Below the pieces are notes generated by a model that did not search any database, was not told the origin of the DNA, and saw only the letters and a program-made list of their open reading frames with translations. DNA of 61,413 nt from Bradyrhizobium oropedii (lineage in GTDB: Bacteria > Pseudomonadota > Alphaproteobacteria > Rhizobiales > Xanthobacteraceae), in contig NZ_JACMYO010000016.1 of NCBI RefSeq assembly GCF_020889685.1, positions 10,001 through 71,413 of the forward strand, read 5' to 3'. Below, one piece after another: positions 1 through 20,268 of this stretch. The position numbers and the translations under genes are program-made. Positions within the stretch are counted from its first letter, which is position 1; every line of letters begins with the position of its first letter.

Positions 1-1025
<1,025 letters not shown>

Positions 1026-1453
1026 TCTCATTATCAATGTCCACACACTCGGCAGAATGTTGTCTGTACAACTGCCAGAAGACCGAAGTCTCAGGCGTGC
1101 ATCCTCGATGAATGCGATTGCACAGCCGGACATTGACTAGAAAGACCAGCTTGCTTCGTAAGATCGGCCCGATAGCGAGGCGGTCAAGCTTCGCTACAAA
1201 GATCGTTTTACAACTCGCTCACCTCACTCATCTTGCGATGAGCTGCGATGCGCGAGCGCCGAAAACGATCTGGAGATTAGGAATGGTACCCGCGAATTGC
1301 TTCGCAGATCCAAACTCGGATCGATCTCCTCTTTACGATGTCAGAAAACACGCACGTCACCGTCCATCCGGACCAATGAGTGCGAAGTGATGTTTCGCGG
1401 ACGATATGAACAGAGCTTCTGCACAAGGTGCATTGTCGAGCTTCAATTCCATC
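1026..1453 (-). other. rRNA operon spacer between tRNA-Ala and 23S
   Basis: This 428-nt transcribed spacer holds no protein gene and no further tRNA that I can fold. It should contain the RNase III processing arm for the 23S 5' end and antitermination signals, but I could not assign these base by base. Confidence 0.7.
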
Positions 1454-1529
1454 TGGTGGAGCCAGACGGGATCGAACCGACGACCTCATGCTTGCAAAGC
1501 ACGCGCTCTCCCAGCTGAGCTATGGCCCC
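1454..1529 (-). tRNA. tRNA-Ala (anticodon TGC)
   Basis: The 76-nt reverse complement folds as a tRNA, with GGGGCCATAGCTC at the 5' end, a TTCGATCC T-arm and an encoded 3' CCA. The anticodon loop is CTTTGCAA, so the anticodon is TGC (alanine). It is the second of the two tRNAs in the 16S-23S spacer, the usual alphaproteobacterial pair. Confidence 0.97.
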
Positions 1530-1564
1530 GTACCAGAAGACGAATGCTCCGCACTCGATCAAAA

Positions 1565-1641
1565 TGGTGGGCCTGGGAAGACTTGAACTTCCGACCTCAC
1601 GCTTATCAAGCGCGCGCTCTAACCAACTGAGCTACAAGCCC
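1565..1641 (-). tRNA. tRNA-Ile (anticodon GAT)
   Basis: The 77-nt reverse complement folds as a tRNA starting GGGCTTGTAGCTCAG, with anticodon loop TTGATAA (GAT, isoleucine), a TTCAAGTC T-arm and an encoded CCA. It lies 35 nt upstream of tRNA-Ala in the direction of transcription and is cotranscribed with it. Confidence 0.97.
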
Positions 1642-3340
<1,699 letters not shown>

Positions 3341-12604: not shown

Positions 12605-13471
12605 ATGCCCCATGCCGTCACGAAAGATAATGTCCGACTCCATTTCGAGGAGGCCGGGAGCGGCACCCCGATCATCTTCATGCACGAGTTCGCTGCGGAT
12701 CACACCAACTGGGAACCGCAGATGCGCTACTTCTCGCGCGGCCACCGCTGCATCGCCTACTCCGCGCGCGGCTACACGCCGTCGGACGTGCCTGCGAGTG
12801 CCAACGTCTACACCTACAAGCATTTCTATTCCGACGCGCTCGCCGTGCTCGACCACCTCGGCATCGCAAGTGCGCATTTCATCGGCCTCTCGATGGGCTC
12901 CTATTCGTCGTTGCAGGTTGCGCTCAACGCGCCGGAGCGCGCGCTCTCGATGACGCTCGCCGCCGTCGGCTCCGGCTCGAGCCTCGAGAATCTCGATGCC
13001 TTCCGCGTCCAGTGCCGCGCCAACGCCGAGCAATACGAGACCATCGGCGCGGTCGAAGTTGCCAAGGCCACGCGCGAGGCGCCGAGCCGGATTCCGTTCC
13101 TGGTGAAGGACCCGCGCGGCCACGCCGATTTCTACGCCGCGCTCGCCCGGCACGACGCCAGGGGCTCGGCCAACACGATGCGCAGCTTCCAGGGCGGCAG
13201 GCCCTCGATCTACACCATGACCGACGCGATCAAGCGCGCAGCGACGCCGGCGCTGATCCTGTGCGGCGACGAGGACGATAATTGCATCGCGCCCAGCATG
13301 TTCCTGAAACAGCATCTGCCGGCCGCCGGCCTCTCCTTCTTCCCGAAGTCGGGCCACGTGCTCAACCTCGAAGAGCCGGCGCTGTTCAACGAGATGGTGG
13401 AGCACTTCATCGCGCTGGTCGAGGCCGGCCGCTGGCCGGTGCGCGATCCGAGGTCGATGGTGGCGGCTTGA
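12605..13471 (+). CDS. Alpha/beta hydrolase
   Basis: A 288-residue alpha/beta-hydrolase. ATG 12605 is chosen because GAGAGGAGAA precedes it and the fold starts right after (RLHFEEAGSGTPIIFMHEF). The nucleophile elbow is GLSMGS (about residue 98) and the catalytic His lies in SGHVLNLEEP near the C-terminus. The LCGDEDDN segment supplies the acid. Substrate unknown; the family includes esterases and C-C hydrolases. Its last codons (WPVRDP to the stop) are duplicated about 4.7 kb downstream, after two unrelated genes. Confidence 0.9.
   Translation: MPHAVTKDNVRLHFEEAGSGTPIIFMHEFAADHTNWEPQMRYFSRGHRCIAYSARGYTPSDVPASANVYTYKHFYSDALAVLDHLGIASAHFIGLSMGSYSSLQVALNAPERALSMTLAAVGSGSSLENLDAFRVQCRANAEQYETIGAVEVAKATREAPSRIPFLVKDPRGHADFYAALARHDARGSANTMRSFQGGRPSIYTMTDAIKRAATPALILCGDEDDNCIAPSMFLKQHLPAAGLSFFPKSGHVLNLEEPALFNEMVEHFIALVEAGRWPVRDPRSMVAA
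13432..13451 (+). repeat. Direct repeat, left copy (3' end of the hydrolase gene)
   Basis: CTGGCCGGTGCGCGATCCGA is repeated exactly at 18162-18181. The next 16 bases match with three differences. In both copies it is in the frame encoding WPVRDP. The copies bracket the 13.47-18.15 kb islet. Confidence 0.85.
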
Positions 13472-13600
13472 ACATCCAATGTCTTCGTTGGACGCAAGGC
13501 GCAACCAGAGCGCGGCGGATACATGCGGACAGCCCGCCAGATCCGCACCCGGAGCTCAGGAAGTGAGATACGTCAACACATTCGTGGCACCGCGCGAACG

Positions 13601-15082
13601 ATGAAAGCCGGATATTCCATTCTGCTCTGCGCGATTGCGATCGGGCTTGCTGTCGTCTCCTACACCGCTTGCGCTCAAGGCCTTGTTGAGGAAATGAAAC
13701 TGGAAGCGGCGGGCGCCACAGCGGATGCGTCCTATCTTCTGGATGGGAAAGCGCAGCCGTCGATCCCGATCGGCTGGGCCGTGATGAGCCCAATGATCGC
13801 CGTCATCGACGACGATCAGTACGCTCCTATCTTCGCGCCTTGCAATCCCGCCGAGCCACTCCTGTATTGCGTTGAAATCCTGAAAAACGGCACGACGTTC
13901 TCAGAACCGCTGGACATGGGACACGCCTTCGTGCCGGCCGGCTTTCAGGCTGAACTCGCCTATCATCCCCCGCTGTTGTTCACAGATGGAACCAGGCTGC
14001 TCGTGGCATACTGGGTCCGTGCGAAGGACCATCGCTCCATCCTCCAGTTGCTCTCGCTCGATCCGAAGGCTTCAGGCATCGCCCCATGGGCCTTGCTATC
14101 GACATTCGAGAATCGTGGTGACGAGCTTCTTAGCTACCTTGGAGGAGCTATGGGGCCCGACGGCGAAATCGTTATCTCCGCATATGGGACCGGTGGACCT
14201 TCGAGGAGCCACCGGCTCGAAATAACAAAGATACTGCCGCCCTACACCGGGCCCTGGATGCCGAAGCAACTCATCGCCGAATATCCCTCACCAGCCTACG
14301 CACCAGAATATCCGCATGTCGCAATTCGCGACGATGGCAGCATCAGCATTTTGACCGTGCTCGCCAACTACACGCCGTGCCCGGAGACTCAAGTAACGTA
14401 TTCGGTCTACAAGAACGTCATCGCTTTCGATGGGCGTTATGGCGGATCTCTTGCCGCGAAATGGAGCGACGCGACGGCGGACACCGTAACCGACCCCGCA
14501 AACCACGGCGACAGCTGCCTGTTCGGGGCGGATCGTTATCCGCTGGCGCATTTTTGGGACAAGCAATCGCACGCAATCTATTCGATCGTACGCAGCGCGG
14601 ACCTCGACGCGGTCGATGCCACCAACAAGGTTGCGTCGAACGCACGCTTCTCACGAACATTCAAGCTCTATCGCGATGGCAGCCTGATCGTGCCCGACCT
14701 TGCGATCTACTTCTCACATTACTTTACCGACCCGCTGCATCCCTGCTACCGGCACGAAAGTGCCTGTCACATCCATGCGATGACGATGACCCGTCTCGAC
14801 AATGGAGAATTCGTCATTTTCGCCAACGCCCGCGACGATGACGCCGCCACGACCTATTCAAAGATCGGCGTCATTTGGTCGAAGGACCTTCAGACATTTT
14901 CCGAGCCGGTTTATCTGCCGACATCCTATGGTCCTGGATACAGCATATTCGTCGCACAACCGGACAAGAACGGCATGCATTCGGCGCGCAAGCTGCAATT
15001 CTTCAACGCGGGCAACACGTACAACCCAGCACAACTCAACTACAATCAGCGCCTCACGCTCTGGCGCTATTCCCTCGACTAG
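13601..15082 (+). CDS. Secreted beta-propeller-like protein of unknown function
   Basis: I do not recognise a named family. The 493-residue product starts at ATG 13601, giving a clean signal peptide (MKAGYSILLCAIAIGLAVVS, cleavage near ACAQ). The body is beta-rich, with repeated short strands and two similar segments, NGTTFSEP and DLQTFSEP, that resemble degenerate Asp-box/BNR turns of sialidase-like propellers. Several cysteines (CNPAEPLLYC, HPCYRHESACH) could form disulfides, as expected outside the cytoplasm. An upstream frame allows a start at 13523, but without a signal peptide. The coding sequence is visibly richer in A and T than its neighbours, suggesting transfer. It is convergent with the G8-domain gene. 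Confidence 0.75.
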   Translation: MKAGYSILLCAIAIGLAVVSYTACAQGLVEEMKLEAAGATADASYLLDGKAQPSIPIGWAVMSPMIAVIDDDQYAPIFAPCNPAEPLLYCVEILKNGTTFSEPLDMGHAFVPAGFQAELAYHPPLLFTDGTRLLVAYWVRAKDHRSILQLLSLDPKASGIAPWALLSTFENRGDELLSYLGGAMGPDGEIVISAYGTGGPSRSHRLEITKILPPYTGPWMPKQLIAEYPSPAYAPEYPHVAIRDDGSISILTVLANYTPCPETQVTYSVYKNVIAFDGRYGGSLAAKWSDATADTVTDPANHGDSCLFGADRYPLAHFWDKQSHAIYSIVRSADLDAVDATNKVASNARFSRTFKLYRDGSLIVPDLAIYFSHYFTDPLHPCYRHESACHIHAMTMTRLDNGEFVIFANARDDDAATTYSKIGVIWSKDLQTFSEPVYLPTSYGPGYSIFVAQPDKNGMHSARKLQFFNAGNTYNPAQLNYNQRLTLWRYSLD

Positions 15083-15143
15083 CGCCAGCGCTCTCCGGAG
15101 ACGCGCAGCGCGCGCCCGTATGGTTCCCACGCCTGGTTCAAGG

Positions 15144-17942
15144 TCATTGGACCTGAGGGAACATCGCGCGCACGTCTCGCTGCATCTCCGGATCGAAATC
15201 ACACTTCCCGCAATATTGCGCCTGCTTGTAGAACTCGTAGTTCCTTCCGCGCCTGACGGCCTGTTTCGTCACGGTGAGCGACAAGGGCAGCGATGTCATG
15301 TCCCCGGCAGGATCCGGAAACTTCACGTCGAGCGCGATATGGCCTTGCCCGTCGGGCCGCAGATCAGGGAAGTCCTGTATGAACGCCATTTCGGTCACGC
15401 GGTTTTCGACCACATCGGCGACGATTCCCTCGAGCCGGTAGCCGTAACGCACGTCGTCAGGGTGAATTTCCAGCTTGCGAAGCAAGGGATGCACGATCAG
15501 CTTTGGGCTGGTCTTCTTGACGAACACAAAATGGGGATGCTCAGGACCGGAAGCCGTGCCTGCGAACGTCCAGCGGCTTTTCGCAGTCTGGTCTTCCGTG
15601 TTTACGATATGCGATCCCGCCAAAGGATAGAGTTCGTTCGAGGGATTTTGCGCAAACTCCAGCTCCGTCGGTGTCGGCGCCAAATTGTCCGCATCGACCA
15701 AGGCCATTGTGGCGTTGCTGCGCGGCAGCGGCTTCGCATCGGCCGGCGCCAACTGACCGCCGAACGCGACGCCAAAGCGAGCCTTGATTTCCCCACTGGT
15801 CAACCCCTTGAGATCGGCTGGCCCGTTATCTGCAAAGGGGACGAAGTTTCCGTTCTGCGATCCAAAGTACAGCCGGAAACTTTTGCCGGCGGAATTGCTC
15901 CAGAAAATCCGGTCGTTTTCAAAGAGCATGGCGACGTCGCCATTCGCCGGCACGGCCAGATCCTTCAGATCGAAGTTCGTTGTCGCGCCCTCGGACGGAA
16001 CGTGGATGTTCTTGAGCGCAACCATGCGGAACGGACGATTCGCCGATTCGATCATGATGTTGGTACGATTGCGGAGGAACGCGCCATCGACCGTGTTGAT
16101 ACCGCGCCGCGGCAGCACCAATCCGTTGGGAAACCGCTCGGCCGAAACATTCTGGAAAGTAATGTTCTCGGTCTGGGAGTTTCCTCCGATCGCAAAATCG
16201 GTGTCCATGTGACGTTCGCCGCCATAGGCGTAGACGTTGCGGATCAGCGTGTCCCGGACGTAGGGAATGAAGAGCGCATGCCGGCTGACATTCCAAACCG
16301 TCACATCCTCGATGAGGCTCTGGGAAGGATGCGGCGCAAGCAGCTTGTGATTCCAGATCTCGACCCCGTCGGCCGAACCGGCCGCTTGGTTGCGCGCAAA
16401 GTACAAATCGACGTCCGACGTCGAAATGCGGCCTTGCGCATCGGCGTTGACGCGATTGTCGGTATTGCGCGCGTCGAAATAGGTACGGTTGTTTCCTTCC
16501 GCAAACGCATAGCCGAACACGACATACGCGCCCGCGGCGTGCCCAAACGCCCAGTTGTCCGTTACGCGGACACCGGCGCTTTGCATCCAGAAGCCGTGCC
16601 CCTGATGGCCATTGTCGAATATCCCCATTCGACTGACGAGCTCCTCGCCTGATCCGGTCGACCGGACTGCGAGATTCCCGCGAAAGGATCCAATCTCGGT
16701 GCCGTTCTCCGCAAAGAAATGCGAGCCGGCGATCTCGAACGTCACATTGTTCTCTGCCAGAAGATGACCACCATGGTTGACGATGCCATGCTTTGGACTC
16801 CCTCTCACGACGCTATTGCGCACCACATGCGGCGGGACATCGATGCGTGCGCCGGAGACGATGTGGAAATGAAGTGCGTATCGGCCGACAGTGTTATCGT
16901 CCGATCCGGCTATCAGGTTTCCGGCCTCATCGAGATCGGGCACGGTCTGGGCCCGCTTGGTGTCGGTACGGCCAAGATCCCGGAACTCGGCGCCGTCAAT
17001 CACCACACCTGTCTGCCGATGCAGGAACATGATGTGGCCTCGCGCCGATAACGGCGCCGCCGCCTCGGAGCTGACCCGGACATTCCTCGTCAGGTTACCG
17101 ACAGGAACGGATGTGCCGTCCGGTGTTAGATGCGTGTATTTGAGCACCCTATCGAGTACAATTCGCTCACCGTCGACGCTGACAACGACTGGCGTTTCGT
17201 CCTCATCATTCGAGTCGCTGGTCCCGGGTATGATCAATTCATCTCCGACTGACCAGTTCGACGGCCGCTGATCGAACTGGAATACCGCTACTCCCGCCAC
17301 GAGTTGGCTCTGCGGTATCTTCCACGCGGTCTTTTCGGCACCATGAATCCGGATGACGCCCATCGAAATGAGCCCGCCGGCCATGTCGAACGGATCACGC
17401 TTTCGGTCCCGGAACGTGCGAGCGGCAAAGGTCAGCTTTGCGACAACCGCCTTCGAGACCGGATGATCTTCGGTCCCCATTTCGAGTGCGCCTTCGGGCG
17501 TCACGACAATCGTTCCTACATTCACGGAGCTTGCGTGATCGGTGCTCCACGCGAGGGCTCCATCGACGCGGATCCAGTCGATGTTGGGCGTGACCTCCTT
17601 GTCGACCTTGACGGTCAGCCCGGATGGAATGCGGACCTTTGCGTTGGCGGCGGGCGGCTTCCCCCGTGCCCAGGTGGAGGGGGCACTCCAATCGCCCGAC
17701 GATACGGCGGTGTCCGTCTCCGAGCACAGGGCTACCAGATCGAGTGCCGCGGAATGCTCTCGATGGCGAGCAAGATCGGGCACGTGATCTGCCGCATGCC
17801 CGGACGCTTGCGTGTCGCAGGCTCCATGCGGCAGCGCCAGGTGTCCCGCTTGGTGCCCATCGGGGGTGGACATATTGGCGGCCCACAAGGCTGCGGACAG
17901 CGCAACAACGAGCAATAGCGCAACCGAGAAACCTGTTCGCAT
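15144..17942 (-). CDS. Secreted G8-domain protein with right-handed beta-helix
   Basis: A 932-residue exported protein. The signal peptide is about residues 1-22 (RTGFSVALLLVVALSAALWA). A G8 domain follows at about 75-200 (GDWSAPSTWARGKPPAANAK, then VRIPSGLTVKVDKEV and MGVIRIHGAEKTAW). The central part (about 250-680) has repeated Asn/Val/Gly strands typical of a parallel beta-helix. The C-terminus has a CxxC (YCGKC). G8 domains occur in animal CEMIP/TMEM2 hyaluronan-degrading proteins and in assorted bacterial proteins, so action on an extracellular polysaccharide is plausible but not shown. ATG 17942 with GGGGG just upstream is preferred over TTG 17957. Composition is less GC-rich than the chromosome around it. 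Confidence 0.82.
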   Translation of the reverse strand: MRTGFSVALLLVVALSAALWAANMSTPDGHQAGHLALPHGACDTQASGHAADHVPDLARHREHSAALDLVALCSETDTAVSSGDWSAPSTWARGKPPAANAKVRIPSGLTVKVDKEVTPNIDWIRVDGALAWSTDHASSVNVGTIVVTPEGALEMGTEDHPVSKAVVAKLTFAARTFRDRKRDPFDMAGGLISMGVIRIHGAEKTAWKIPQSQLVAGVAVFQFDQRPSNWSVGDELIIPGTSDSNDEDETPVVVSVDGERIVLDRVLKYTHLTPDGTSVPVGNLTRNVRVSSEAAAPLSARGHIMFLHRQTGVVIDGAEFRDLGRTDTKRAQTVPDLDEAGNLIAGSDDNTVGRYALHFHIVSGARIDVPPHVVRNSVVRGSPKHGIVNHGGHLLAENNVTFEIAGSHFFAENGTEIGSFRGNLAVRSTGSGEELVSRMGIFDNGHQGHGFWMQSAGVRVTDNWAFGHAAGAYVVFGYAFAEGNNRTYFDARNTDNRVNADAQGRISTSDVDLYFARNQAAGSADGVEIWNHKLLAPHPSQSLIEDVTVWNVSRHALFIPYVRDTLIRNVYAYGGERHMDTDFAIGGNSQTENITFQNVSAERFPNGLVLPRRGINTVDGAFLRNRTNIMIESANRPFRMVALKNIHVPSEGATTNFDLKDLAVPANGDVAMLFENDRIFWSNSAGKSFRLYFGSQNGNFVPFADNGPADLKGLTSGEIKARFGVAFGGQLAPADAKPLPRSNATMALVDADNLAPTPTELEFAQNPSNELYPLAGSHIVNTEDQTAKSRWTFAGTASGPEHPHFVFVKKTSPKLIVHPLLRKLEIHPDDVRYGYRLEGIVADVVENRVTEMAFIQDFPDLRPDGQGHIALDVKFPDPAGDMTSLPLSLTVTKQAVRRGRNYEFYKQAQYCGKCDFDPEMQRDVRAMFPQVQ

Positions 17943-18147
17943 TGTCACCCCCAGCAAGTGACCATCGCGCGTCAGCCCGCGATGACCACCATCAACCCAC
18001 CATTGATTCGATTATCTCTAATCAGCATGACGCATTTTTGCACGGCGAGCGCGAATGGGAAAGCTGCACACCGACAACCCATCCCTGTCATGGCCGACGA
18101 TCTGAATCGGCGGGGATTCCACGGATTTCGTTGAAGGATTGCAAAGA

Positions 18148-18207
18148 TTCAGCCGCGGCCTCTGGCCGGTGCGCGATCCGATGTCGCAGGTGGCGACGCC
18201 GGGTTGA
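18148..18207 (+). pseudogene. Remnant of an alpha/beta hydrolase 3' end (right direct repeat)
   Basis: A 20-residue open tail ending at TGA 18205-18207 reads GLWPVRDPMSQVATPG, matching the end of the hydrolase at 12605-13471 (AGRWPVRDPRSMVAA). The first 20 bp of the match (18162-18181) are identical to 13432-13451. No start codon or body of a gene precedes it; the islet genes lie there instead. It is either the original gene end displaced by insertion or a worn-down paralogue. Confidence 0.6.
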
Positions 18208-18222
18208 CGTGTCACACAGCTG

Positions 18223-18900
18223 TCACTTGGCCTTGTCGCTACCCTGCCCACCACGGCTGAGCAGGAACACGCCCTGCTCGCCGAACATGTTCCACACCCA
18301 CCAGGGCAAATTGAGCGGCACCGGGCGGCCGTAGAGATCGAGCGCCACCGCGCGCTCCATCTTGACGTTGATCTGCTCGCAGAGCTCCACGAAATCCTTG
18401 ATGGTGCAGAAATGGATGTTGGCGGTGTCGTACCAGCTCGCCGGCAGATTCTCGGTCCGCGGCATGTGGCCGCCGATCAGGAGCTGCAGCCGCATCTTCC
18501 AGAACCCGAAATTCGGGAACGAGACGATGGCGCGCTGGCCGATCCGCAGCAGGTTCTCCAGCACCACCTTGGGCTGCCGCGTGGCCTGCAAGGTCTGCGA
18601 CAGGATCACGTAGTCGAACGCATCATCGGGATAGTTGACGAGGTCGGTGTCGGCGTCGCCCTGCACCACTGCGAGCCCCTTGGCGACGCAGCCATTGACG
18701 CCCTCGCGCGACAGCTCGATGCCGCGGCCGTCGATGCCGCGGCTCTCCAAGAGCTGAAGCAATTCGCCATCGCCGCAGCCGACATCGAGTACGCGCGAGC
18801 TCGGCCGCACCATCTCGGCGACCAGAAGATGATCCCTGCGATAGCCGCCGGTCCGCTCCGGCGCGACGCCCGGCAAGGGCAATGTCTGCTGCATGCTCAT
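18223..18900 (-). CDS. metW: Methionine biosynthesis protein MetW
   Basis: A 225-residue class I SAM-dependent methyltransferase-like protein. Motif I is [14 protein letters not shown] (about 38-51). MetW is found next to MetX in alpha- and betaproteobacteria, and the pair is needed for homoserine acyl transfer in the methionine pathway. Its ATG overlaps the metX stop (ATGA, 18897-18900), so translation is coupled. It is under the SAM-II riboswitch upstream of metX. Confidence 0.95.
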
Positions 18901-20102
18901 GACTGGCCGTCGTCCTTCAGTCCGCGTGCCTTGCCTGCGGCCAGCAGGAAGGCACGGGAGATTTCGAGGAATTCGGGCACGTCGAGCAGGAAGGCGTCGT
19001 GACCTCGATCGGTCTCGATCTCCGCGAACGACACCCGCGCACTCGACGCATTCAGCGCGTGCACCAGCGCGCGCGATTCCGAGGTCGGAAACAGCCAGTC
19101 GCTGGTGAACGACACCACGCAGAACCGCGTCTGGATGCCGGTGAACGCCTTCGCCAGCACGCCGTTGTGGTCGGCGGCGATGTCGAAATAGTCCATCGCG
19201 CGGGTCAGATAGAGATAGCTATTGGCGTCGAAGCGCTCGACAAAGGACGAGCCCTGATAGCGCAGGTAGCTCTCGACCTGGAAATCCGCATCGAACGAGA
19301 AGGTCGGCAGCTCGCGGTCCTGCATCCGCCGCCCGAACTTGCGATGCAGCGCGGCGTCCGAGAGGTAGGTGATGTGCGCGGCCATCCGCGCGACCGCCAA
19401 GCCGCGATGCGGATGGGTGTCCTCGTCGACATAACGGCCGCCACGCCAGTCCGGATCGGCCATGACAGCCTGGCGGCCGAGCTCGTGGAATGCGATGTTC
19501 TGCGCCGAGTGGCGCGTCGAGCAGGCGATCGCAAGCGTCGCGAACACGCGCTCGGGATAGGCCGCGGTCCATTGCAGCACCTGCATGCCGCCCATCGAAC
19601 CGCCGACCACGCAGAACAGCGTCGCGATACCGAGGCGATCGATCAGCATCGCCTGCGCGCGCACCATGTCGGGGATCGTGATGATCGGGAAATCCAACCC
19701 CCACATCTTGCCGGTCGCAGGGTTCAGCGACGCAGGGCCCGTCGAGCCCATGCAGCCGCCGATCACGTTGGAGCAGATGATGAAGTATTTGTCGGGATCG
19801 ATCGGCTTGCCGGCCCCGACCATGGTCTCCCACCAGCCGGGCTTGCCCGTGACGGGATGGATGTTGTTGACGTGCTGATCGCCGGTCAGCGCGTGGCAGA
19901 TCAGAATCGCGTTGGACCGGTCGGCATTGAGCTGGCCATAGGTCTGATAGGCGATCTGGAACGGTGCGAGATCGACGCCGCAATCGAGCTTCAGCGGCTG
20001 ATCCATGCCGAACTTCGCCACCAATGACGACGGATGATCGGCCTCATGGGCGCGATCATCGCTCTGGGTTTGCGGGCTCGGTATCGGACGCACGTTGCTC
20101 AT
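18897..20102 (-). CDS. metX: Homoserine O-acetyltransferase MetX
   Basis: A 401-residue alpha/beta-hydrolase-fold enzyme making O-acetyl (or O-succinyl) homoserine, the first committed step of methionine synthesis. The nucleophilic Ser lies in [12 protein letters not shown] (about 165); the catalytic Asp is in SDWLFP and the His in [10 protein letters not shown]. MetX-type enzymes in Proteobacteria may prefer succinyl-CoA, so the acyl donor is uncertain. First gene of metX-metW, about 160 nt downstream of the inferred transcription start and behind a riboswitch-terminator. Confidence 0.96.
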
Positions 20103-20186: not shown

Positions 20187-20201
20187 AGCTGATCTGTCCC
20201 C

Positions 20202-20258
20202 GGCCTGTTTAGCGAGTTGTTTAACGTGGCTGCAAGCCGGCCGGCTCAAATGACCACG
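20202..20258 (-). promoter_or_regulatory. SAM-II riboswitch aptamer
   Basis: The RNA strand reads CGTGG (20254-20258) TCATTTGAGCCGGCCGG, then CTTGCAGCCACG (P1 3' arm 20225-20229), TTAAACAA, and CGCTAAACAGGCC at the 3' end. P1, the conserved UUUG and UUGCA loop bases and the terminal GCUAAA match the SAM-II consensus found upstream of metA/metX in alphaproteobacteria. SAM binding should favour the downstream terminator, switching off metX-metW when SAM is plentiful. Confidence 0.9.
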
Positions 20259-20268
20259 GAGTGCAGCG

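Follow-up and report, generated by a model that had tools for sequence, protein, structure and literature searches.

The locus considered here raises the question of how the 3' end of one gene came to stand on both sides of two others. In the window, by which we mean the whole 61,413-nt stretch of Bradyrhizobium oropedii DNA that was analyzed, an alpha/beta hydrolase gene (12605..13471, + strand; assigned by PF00561 and by C-terminal comparison) is followed by two genes and then by a second copy of its own last codons. A preliminary description made from the sequence had called the two intervening genes convergent, and this is how they lie, with gene 1 at 13601-15082 on the + strand (493 aa; start picked by comparison with the other carriers of the gene) and gene 2 at 15144-17942 on the - strand (932 aa; PF10162 and PF24606); we refer to the inserted block that holds them as the islet. 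The right core neighbor is metW (18223..18900, - strand; PF07021), whose distance from the hydrolase was surveyed in the gap census below, and it is followed by a further core gene (18897..20102, - strand; PF00561), syntenic in 20/20 loci, which we take to be metX from its place beside metW; the profile itself shows an alpha/beta hydrolase fold alone. An alpha-proteobacterial SAM riboswitch (20188-20267, - strand) is located upstream of this metX-type gene, which precedes metW. As the hydrolase gene lies on the left on the + strand and metW and the metX-type gene lie on the opposite strand, the islet separates two core units that converge on it, and its genes are each co-directional with the core gene that precedes them. 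Gene 2 thus runs in the same direction after metW, and read-through control from the SAM riboswitch is conceivable; a search for Sigma-70-like promoters found none, the average in shuffled sequences being 1.7. At the far left of the window (1-3340, - strand) there is a ribosomal RNA operon comprising 16S, tRNA-Ile, tRNA-Ala and part of 23S.

The direct repeat that brackets the islet measures 40 nt, somewhat more than first described, with 36/40 bases identical between 13426-13465 and 18156-18195. It contains the 20 identical base pairs that the preliminary description had placed at 13432-13451 and 18162-18181; this core is exact, and when up to two mismatches were allowed no third site turned up in the window, nor any match in 100 dinucleotide shuffles. 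A search for further copies had been proposed, and in the 9.04-Mb assembly the exact core was found at two sites, both of them those bracketing the islet, with seven further sites at two or three mismatches, the same number as was obtained with a reversed control pattern. Reading both copies also bore out the claim that they share one frame (GRWPVRDPRSMVAA upstream and GLWPVRDPMSQVATPG downstream), the C-termini being ...RSMVAA* in the upstream and ...MSQVATPG* in the downstream copy. The description had further counted three changes in the 16 bases after the core; three is right for the next 14 bases, whereas the full 16 have four. Its remark that GC is lower between the copies than in the flanks agrees with third codon positions, GC3 being 69 and 71% in the islet genes against 82–90% in the eight neighboring genes measured.

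Searches of related genomes showed the islet to be present in a few and its site to be empty in most. Gene 1 was identified in 5/265 congeners, namely in the window and in the genomes G043, G076, G120 and G183, and every copy lies between the hydrolase gene and metW; the latter four carriers are presumably members of the B. elkanii group. Close copies of gene 2 occurred in the same five carriers among 195 genomes searched, the other four being 85–87% identical to that of the window, with the G076 copy matched as two pieces (87 and 72%); this G076 gene is split over two frames near codon 127, through either real decay or a sequencing error. Distant copies of gene 2 were found elsewhere in three further genomes of the 195 and at a second place in the window's own genome, and B. 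elkanii was present among the named homologs in the best 120 of at least 125 matches. Across the order gene 1 was found in 1/397 genomes drawn, which was the window's own, and no match to it was identified in plasmid and phage records. The hydrolase, by comparison, had a protein match in 195/195 genomes searched. As a sample of empty sites we used the 16 non-carriers with hydrolases most similar to that of the window, and in 16/16 the hydrolase gene and metW are adjacent, giving the empty site that had been predicted for an insertion; 14/16 of these hydrolases end in ...PV* and the other two in a close variant. No islet remnant was detected by blastn in 33/33 non-carrier loci. By eye, short palindromic repeat-like sequences directly follow the hydrolase stop at most empty sites, G192 being without any, and close relatives differ in the type present.

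To these two states of the site a census of the hydrolase-metW gap added a third. The two genes lie on one contig in 120 of the 124 genomes listed for both, and 107 of the gaps span 18–679 bp (median 131), the other 13 being longer than 1 kb; these 13 consist of the five islets and eight other cargoes. Thus different cargoes occur between the same core genes (13/120 junctions >1 kb), as is typical of a hotspot. The eight other inserts (1.4–7.1 kb, in G007, G015, G031, G033, G054, G128, G156 and G180) have no blastn match to the islet, and they are not all independent, as a similar ORF is common to G031 and G033. Conserved synteny of the two genes in related strains, combined with matching codon usage, had been named in advance as evidence against an insertion; the first part of this was found, since four other species have the same genes at the same place, but the second was not, as the codon usage of the window's islet genes is unlike that of their neighbors. 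With 16/16 empty sites, the central claim of the preliminary description, that the block is an insertion at the hydrolase 3' end that duplicated the target tail and left a rebuilt gene, is upheld; the rebuilt upstream gene ends slightly differently. On balance we consider it moderately probable that the block 13472-18155 is an inserted two-gene islet whose right-hand repeat is the displaced and decaying end of the hydrolase gene, left there by homologous recombination through the tail.

The two tail copies can be told apart by their endings. From the stop of the upstream hydrolase onward the carriers have alignable sequence, in the window the islet left end (13472..13600, + strand), which aligns with the four other carriers, so that the junction is common to them; the upstream gene of the carriers is without the last two codons of most empty relatives, ending in VAA* in the window where most of these have VAAPV*. 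The downstream copy (18156..18207, + strand), which matches the empty-site tail of G048 at 43/47 bases, has instead an ending and stop of the native type, ATPG* in the window and AVPV* in G043, to be compared with, e.g., AAPV* at an empty site. The G043 copy runs on into intergenic DNA like that of its relative G148, and the window DNA between copy 2 and metW has no match to the nearest empty relatives, G048 and G138. Given this native-type ending downstream and the early end of the upstream hydrolase, the most plausible original hydrolase tail is the downstream copy, which would have been displaced.

The homology of this fossil to the hydrolase starts at one codon (~254), ~97 bp from the end, in G043 as well as in the highest-scoring G076 alignments; with two of the seven reference tails the G076 alignment could be extended with gaps to -147, at a lower score. 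What precedes the start is islet sequence, alignable among carriers. A start at one codon in both genomes points to an ancestral duplication of ~97 bp, and since the fossil start maps to it, the corresponding segment of copy 1 in the window would be 13370..13467 (+ strand). The same codon bears on whether the right-hand copy could be all that is left of a tandem paralog, a second and once complete hydrolase gene, as might be thought from the fact that copy 2 is open in the hydrolase frame in both the window and G076. A full separate hydrolase at this position in relatives, which the preliminary description had named as evidence against its reading, was not seen: each of 20 loci has one complete hydrolase, and the sole second match is the G076 fossil (residues 254–287). 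Together with the common start near codon 254 in G043 and G076, this led us to reject a second full gene, and we regard the paralog explanation as hardly credible.

Comparison of the five carriers showed the displaced tail in different states of preservation. In the window only the last ~50 bases of copy 2 are plain, and the preceding 52 (18104..18155, + strand) are recognizable only by their match to the decayed G043 copy (score 25, reached by 2/300 shuffles); against two native tails they scored 14 and 18 (210 and 56 of 300 shuffles, respectively), and against the G183 remnant 15 (138/300 shuffles). Differences are concentrated in the 5' 60 bases, with 20/60 against 5/47 in the rest of the window copy and 13/60 against 3/47 in that of G043, a split into decayed and fresh parts for which four cut points were used, picked after looking at the data; G076 shows the opposite split because a deletion took its 3' end. 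Within G076 the two copies are distinguished by 3 of 92 bases, and over 92 bases there is no difference between its upstream copy and the tail of G148. G183 and G120, which are not sisters on the core tree, have a truncated tail remnant in common, its match being weakly significant (26–36 of 1000 shuffles over the gap between gene 2 and metW). Two derived bases are common to the remnants of G043, G183 and G120 and absent from 16/16 native tails, which suggests one original scar that was carried along. The fresh G076 copy and the fresh 3' part of the window copy suggest, in turn, that the host tail may have served to renew the repeat, through recombination or gene conversion; all of these readings of the tail draw on fewer than 110 bases in five carriers.

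The history of the islet was then compared with that of its flanks. A tree of rpoB and the four flanking genes (21 genomes) has the five carriers scattered, each beside empty relatives. The islet falls into three lineages, between which its dS is 0.44–0.59, while the flanks of the same pairs have 0.21–0.28 (8/8 pairs); within lineages the islet is about as diverged as its flanks (0.22 versus 0.23 and 0.16 versus 0.18, 2/2 pairs). For reference, the largest flank dS over the 210 pairs of the 21 genomes is 0.361. By dS, the three lineages thus differ roughly twice as much in the islet as in the flanks, so the islet appears to have its own history, and one insertion inherited by vertical descent alone does not agree with these values unless the four flanking genes were homogenized. 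Consequently, we judge it quite unlikely that the carriers inherited the islet vertically from a common ancestor with a single old insertion, which was then lost many times through the direct repeat, although several observations speak for such a history: the two derived bases in the G043, G183 and G120 remnants favor one origin of the fossil, the gene would be restored cleanly if the islet were lost across a ~97-bp repeat that was still fresh, and in 44/50 flank windows no other carrier is closer to the carrier than its own empty relatives are (another carrier was closer than the chosen relatives in 6/50, and there were 5 ties). Against it stand the between-lineage islet values, above the flank maximum in 8/8 pairs, and the truncation of the repeat in G183 and G120, as repeat-mediated loss is unavailable once copy 2 has been largely deleted; in addition, the G076 copy would be very fresh for such an age unless it was gene-converted.

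If the islet was inserted, its mechanism of entry has to be considered. Integrative genomic islands that use gene 3' ends leave a direct repeat and a rebuilt gene, and in having an insertion at a gene end, a direct repeat and a rebuilt target gene the islet resembles them. A site-specific recombinase, since lost or acting in trans, may thus have used the hydrolase 3' end as an attachment site, like islands at tRNA and some protein genes, and this would also account for junctions common to carriers whose islets diverged early; the low GC of the islet and the 17 matches to the tyrosine integrase family (PF00589) elsewhere in the genome are consistent with it. However, in a search that covered the tyrosine integrases the 71-kb contig (C16) gave no PF00589 match, the preliminary description having already remarked that no integrase was seen, and there is no tyrosine integrase gene inside or linked to the islet, which consists of two genes; in all five carriers the space holds two genes and short gaps. 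Furthermore, an attachment site predicts a repeat whenever it is used, and here the other inserts were informative. We scanned each gap with the last 110 nt of the genome's own hydrolase gene (100 shuffles each), and this detected the duplication in 3/5 carriers (window, G043 and G076; 0/100 shuffles each), missed it in G183 and G120 (72 and 64 of 100 shuffles), and found no tail duplication at the eight other inserts, where between 3 and 89 of 100 shuffles scored at least as high. A wider scan with 600 nt of the hydrolase topped all 40 shuffles in 5/8 genomes with other inserts (G031, G054, G156, G180 and G015) and in 1/9 genomes with smaller gaps (G016); the alignments lie wholly upstream of the tail in 4/5, that of G054 being long, gapped and reaching -7, and we take these signals as general coding-sequence similarity. 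The junction was accordingly rejected as an attachment-site hotspot on account of the eight inserts that lack a tail duplication. Finally, the truncated remnant common to G183 and G120 implies that the block travelled, or stayed, with its scar. The integrase-type integration favored in the preliminary description is therefore not supported, given a contig that lacks a tyrosine integrase, 8/13 large inserts that lack a tail duplication and a truncated remnant in two non-sister carriers, and we consider entry by a recombinase unlikely. Target duplication by neither integrase nor homology could, by reasoning, also arise from end joining at a staggered double-strand break, where fill-in of long overhangs made the ~97-bp duplication; a 97-nt stagger is long, and neither the recurrence of the same junctions nor the fresh G076 copy would be explained, making this very unlikely.

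Homologous recombination is, in our assessment, more likely than an integrase as the mechanism, based on the variable cargo between conserved genes, the scar in non-sister carriers and the mostly native-looking flanks. Under this preferred reading, DNA carrying the islet and its own copy of the hydrolase tail would have recombined with the resident tail by ordinary RecA-type recombination, the dependence on RecA being assumed from laboratory precedent; the left crossover is not placeable, the hydrolase being too conserved in its 3' half. At an ancestral stage, the islet would have come to be bordered by ~97 bp of hydrolase sequence, possibly via a single crossover of a circularized fragment with a trimmed part of the hydrolase gene, and later moves between related species may have used the flanking genes and the tail as homology arms. 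As long as the direct repeat was fresh, clean loss of the islet with restoration of the hydrolase would be possible, and once the right copy had decayed or been deleted the islet would be locked in.

Several known systems resemble parts of this scheme. The best precedent for the first event is the experiment of PMC3240628, where a gene end was duplicated in 56/60 E. coli recombinants, over 109–950 bp in the 14 sequenced, which was explained by a single crossover of a trimmed, recircularized molecule; these integrants likewise consist of a gene, an insert and then a partial second gene end of ~100 bp or more, with the difference that they involve a plasmid in E. coli, whereas the islet event would be old and is reconstructed. 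Hotspots that lack mobile elements are described in PMC5635113 as exchanging their cargo via flanking core genes, and the islet resembles these in that one core-gene junction has different cargoes across species and that the islet genes include no mobile-element gene, while the Bradyrhizobium insertion differs in being marked by a duplicated target tail. For Vibrio T6SS arrays, PMC5361080 proposes displacement of the old 3' part by an incoming anchored module; in the V. cholerae immunity arrays, as in the islet, the incoming module is anchored in a conserved upstream stretch and the old downstream part remains, but there a whole gene is left and here a decaying fragment. From integrative islands the islet differs in that no tyrosine integrase was found and that other inserts at the site have no repeat, and a literature search for rebuilt-gene islands found nothing. 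The islet belongs to a known kind, that of gene blocks exchanged by recombination, and its scar is unusually easy to read. Many variable blocks of bacterial genes have no recombinase, and their route of entry is usually invisible; since five related genomes keep this scar in a fresh, decayed or truncated form, the order of events can be read and tested here. More speculatively, the islet might be an integrase-free mobile unit addressed by homology, i.e., one that carries the tail of a single widespread Bradyrhizobium gene, recombines into the end of that gene in a recipient, renews its repeat from every host that it enters and can exit through this repeat, doing no damage, until decay of the displaced copy locks it in, although we hold this extension to be rather doubtful.

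As for the cargo, both islet proteins have an apparent signal peptide by eye. The gene 1 product is a predicted beta-propeller with no Pfam or NCBIfam match, and that of gene 2, also unmatched in NCBIfam, has a G8 domain (57.5 bits, cut-off 22.9) and a CEMIP-type beta-helix (48.8 bits, cut-off 27.3), both above the curated cut-offs; sequence relatives among solved structures were matched only at E-values above 0.1 for the islet proteins. Photorhabdus PLL-type propeller lectins, which have seven blades with sugar-binding sites between them, are among the closest known systems for the predicted propeller. Gene 2 shares its G8 domain and CEMIP beta-helix with the CEMIP/TMEM2-type G8 proteins (PMC10474455), and differs from them in being bacterial and predicted to be secreted. 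A literature search combining G8 domain-containing proteins with Bradyrhizobium found nothing. The window's own genome has a second, distant G8 protein (G000:C269:2225-4861; 40% identity) in another setting, on a contig without gene 1, and G183 has a second gene 1 homolog (G183:C1:579535-581001; 46% by genome search) with no G8 gene in the 11.5 kb covered. Both are predicted secreted proteins that together would bind or cut a polysaccharide, and the islet would pair a bacterial relative of animal hyaluronan-degrading proteins with an orphan propeller, each of them little known, as a probable sugar-acting pair. In a 553-aa JGI metagenome protein (P0006), a gene 1 homolog is fused in frame to 81 residues that match the G8 protein at its C-terminal end, which suggests that the two islet proteins work together.
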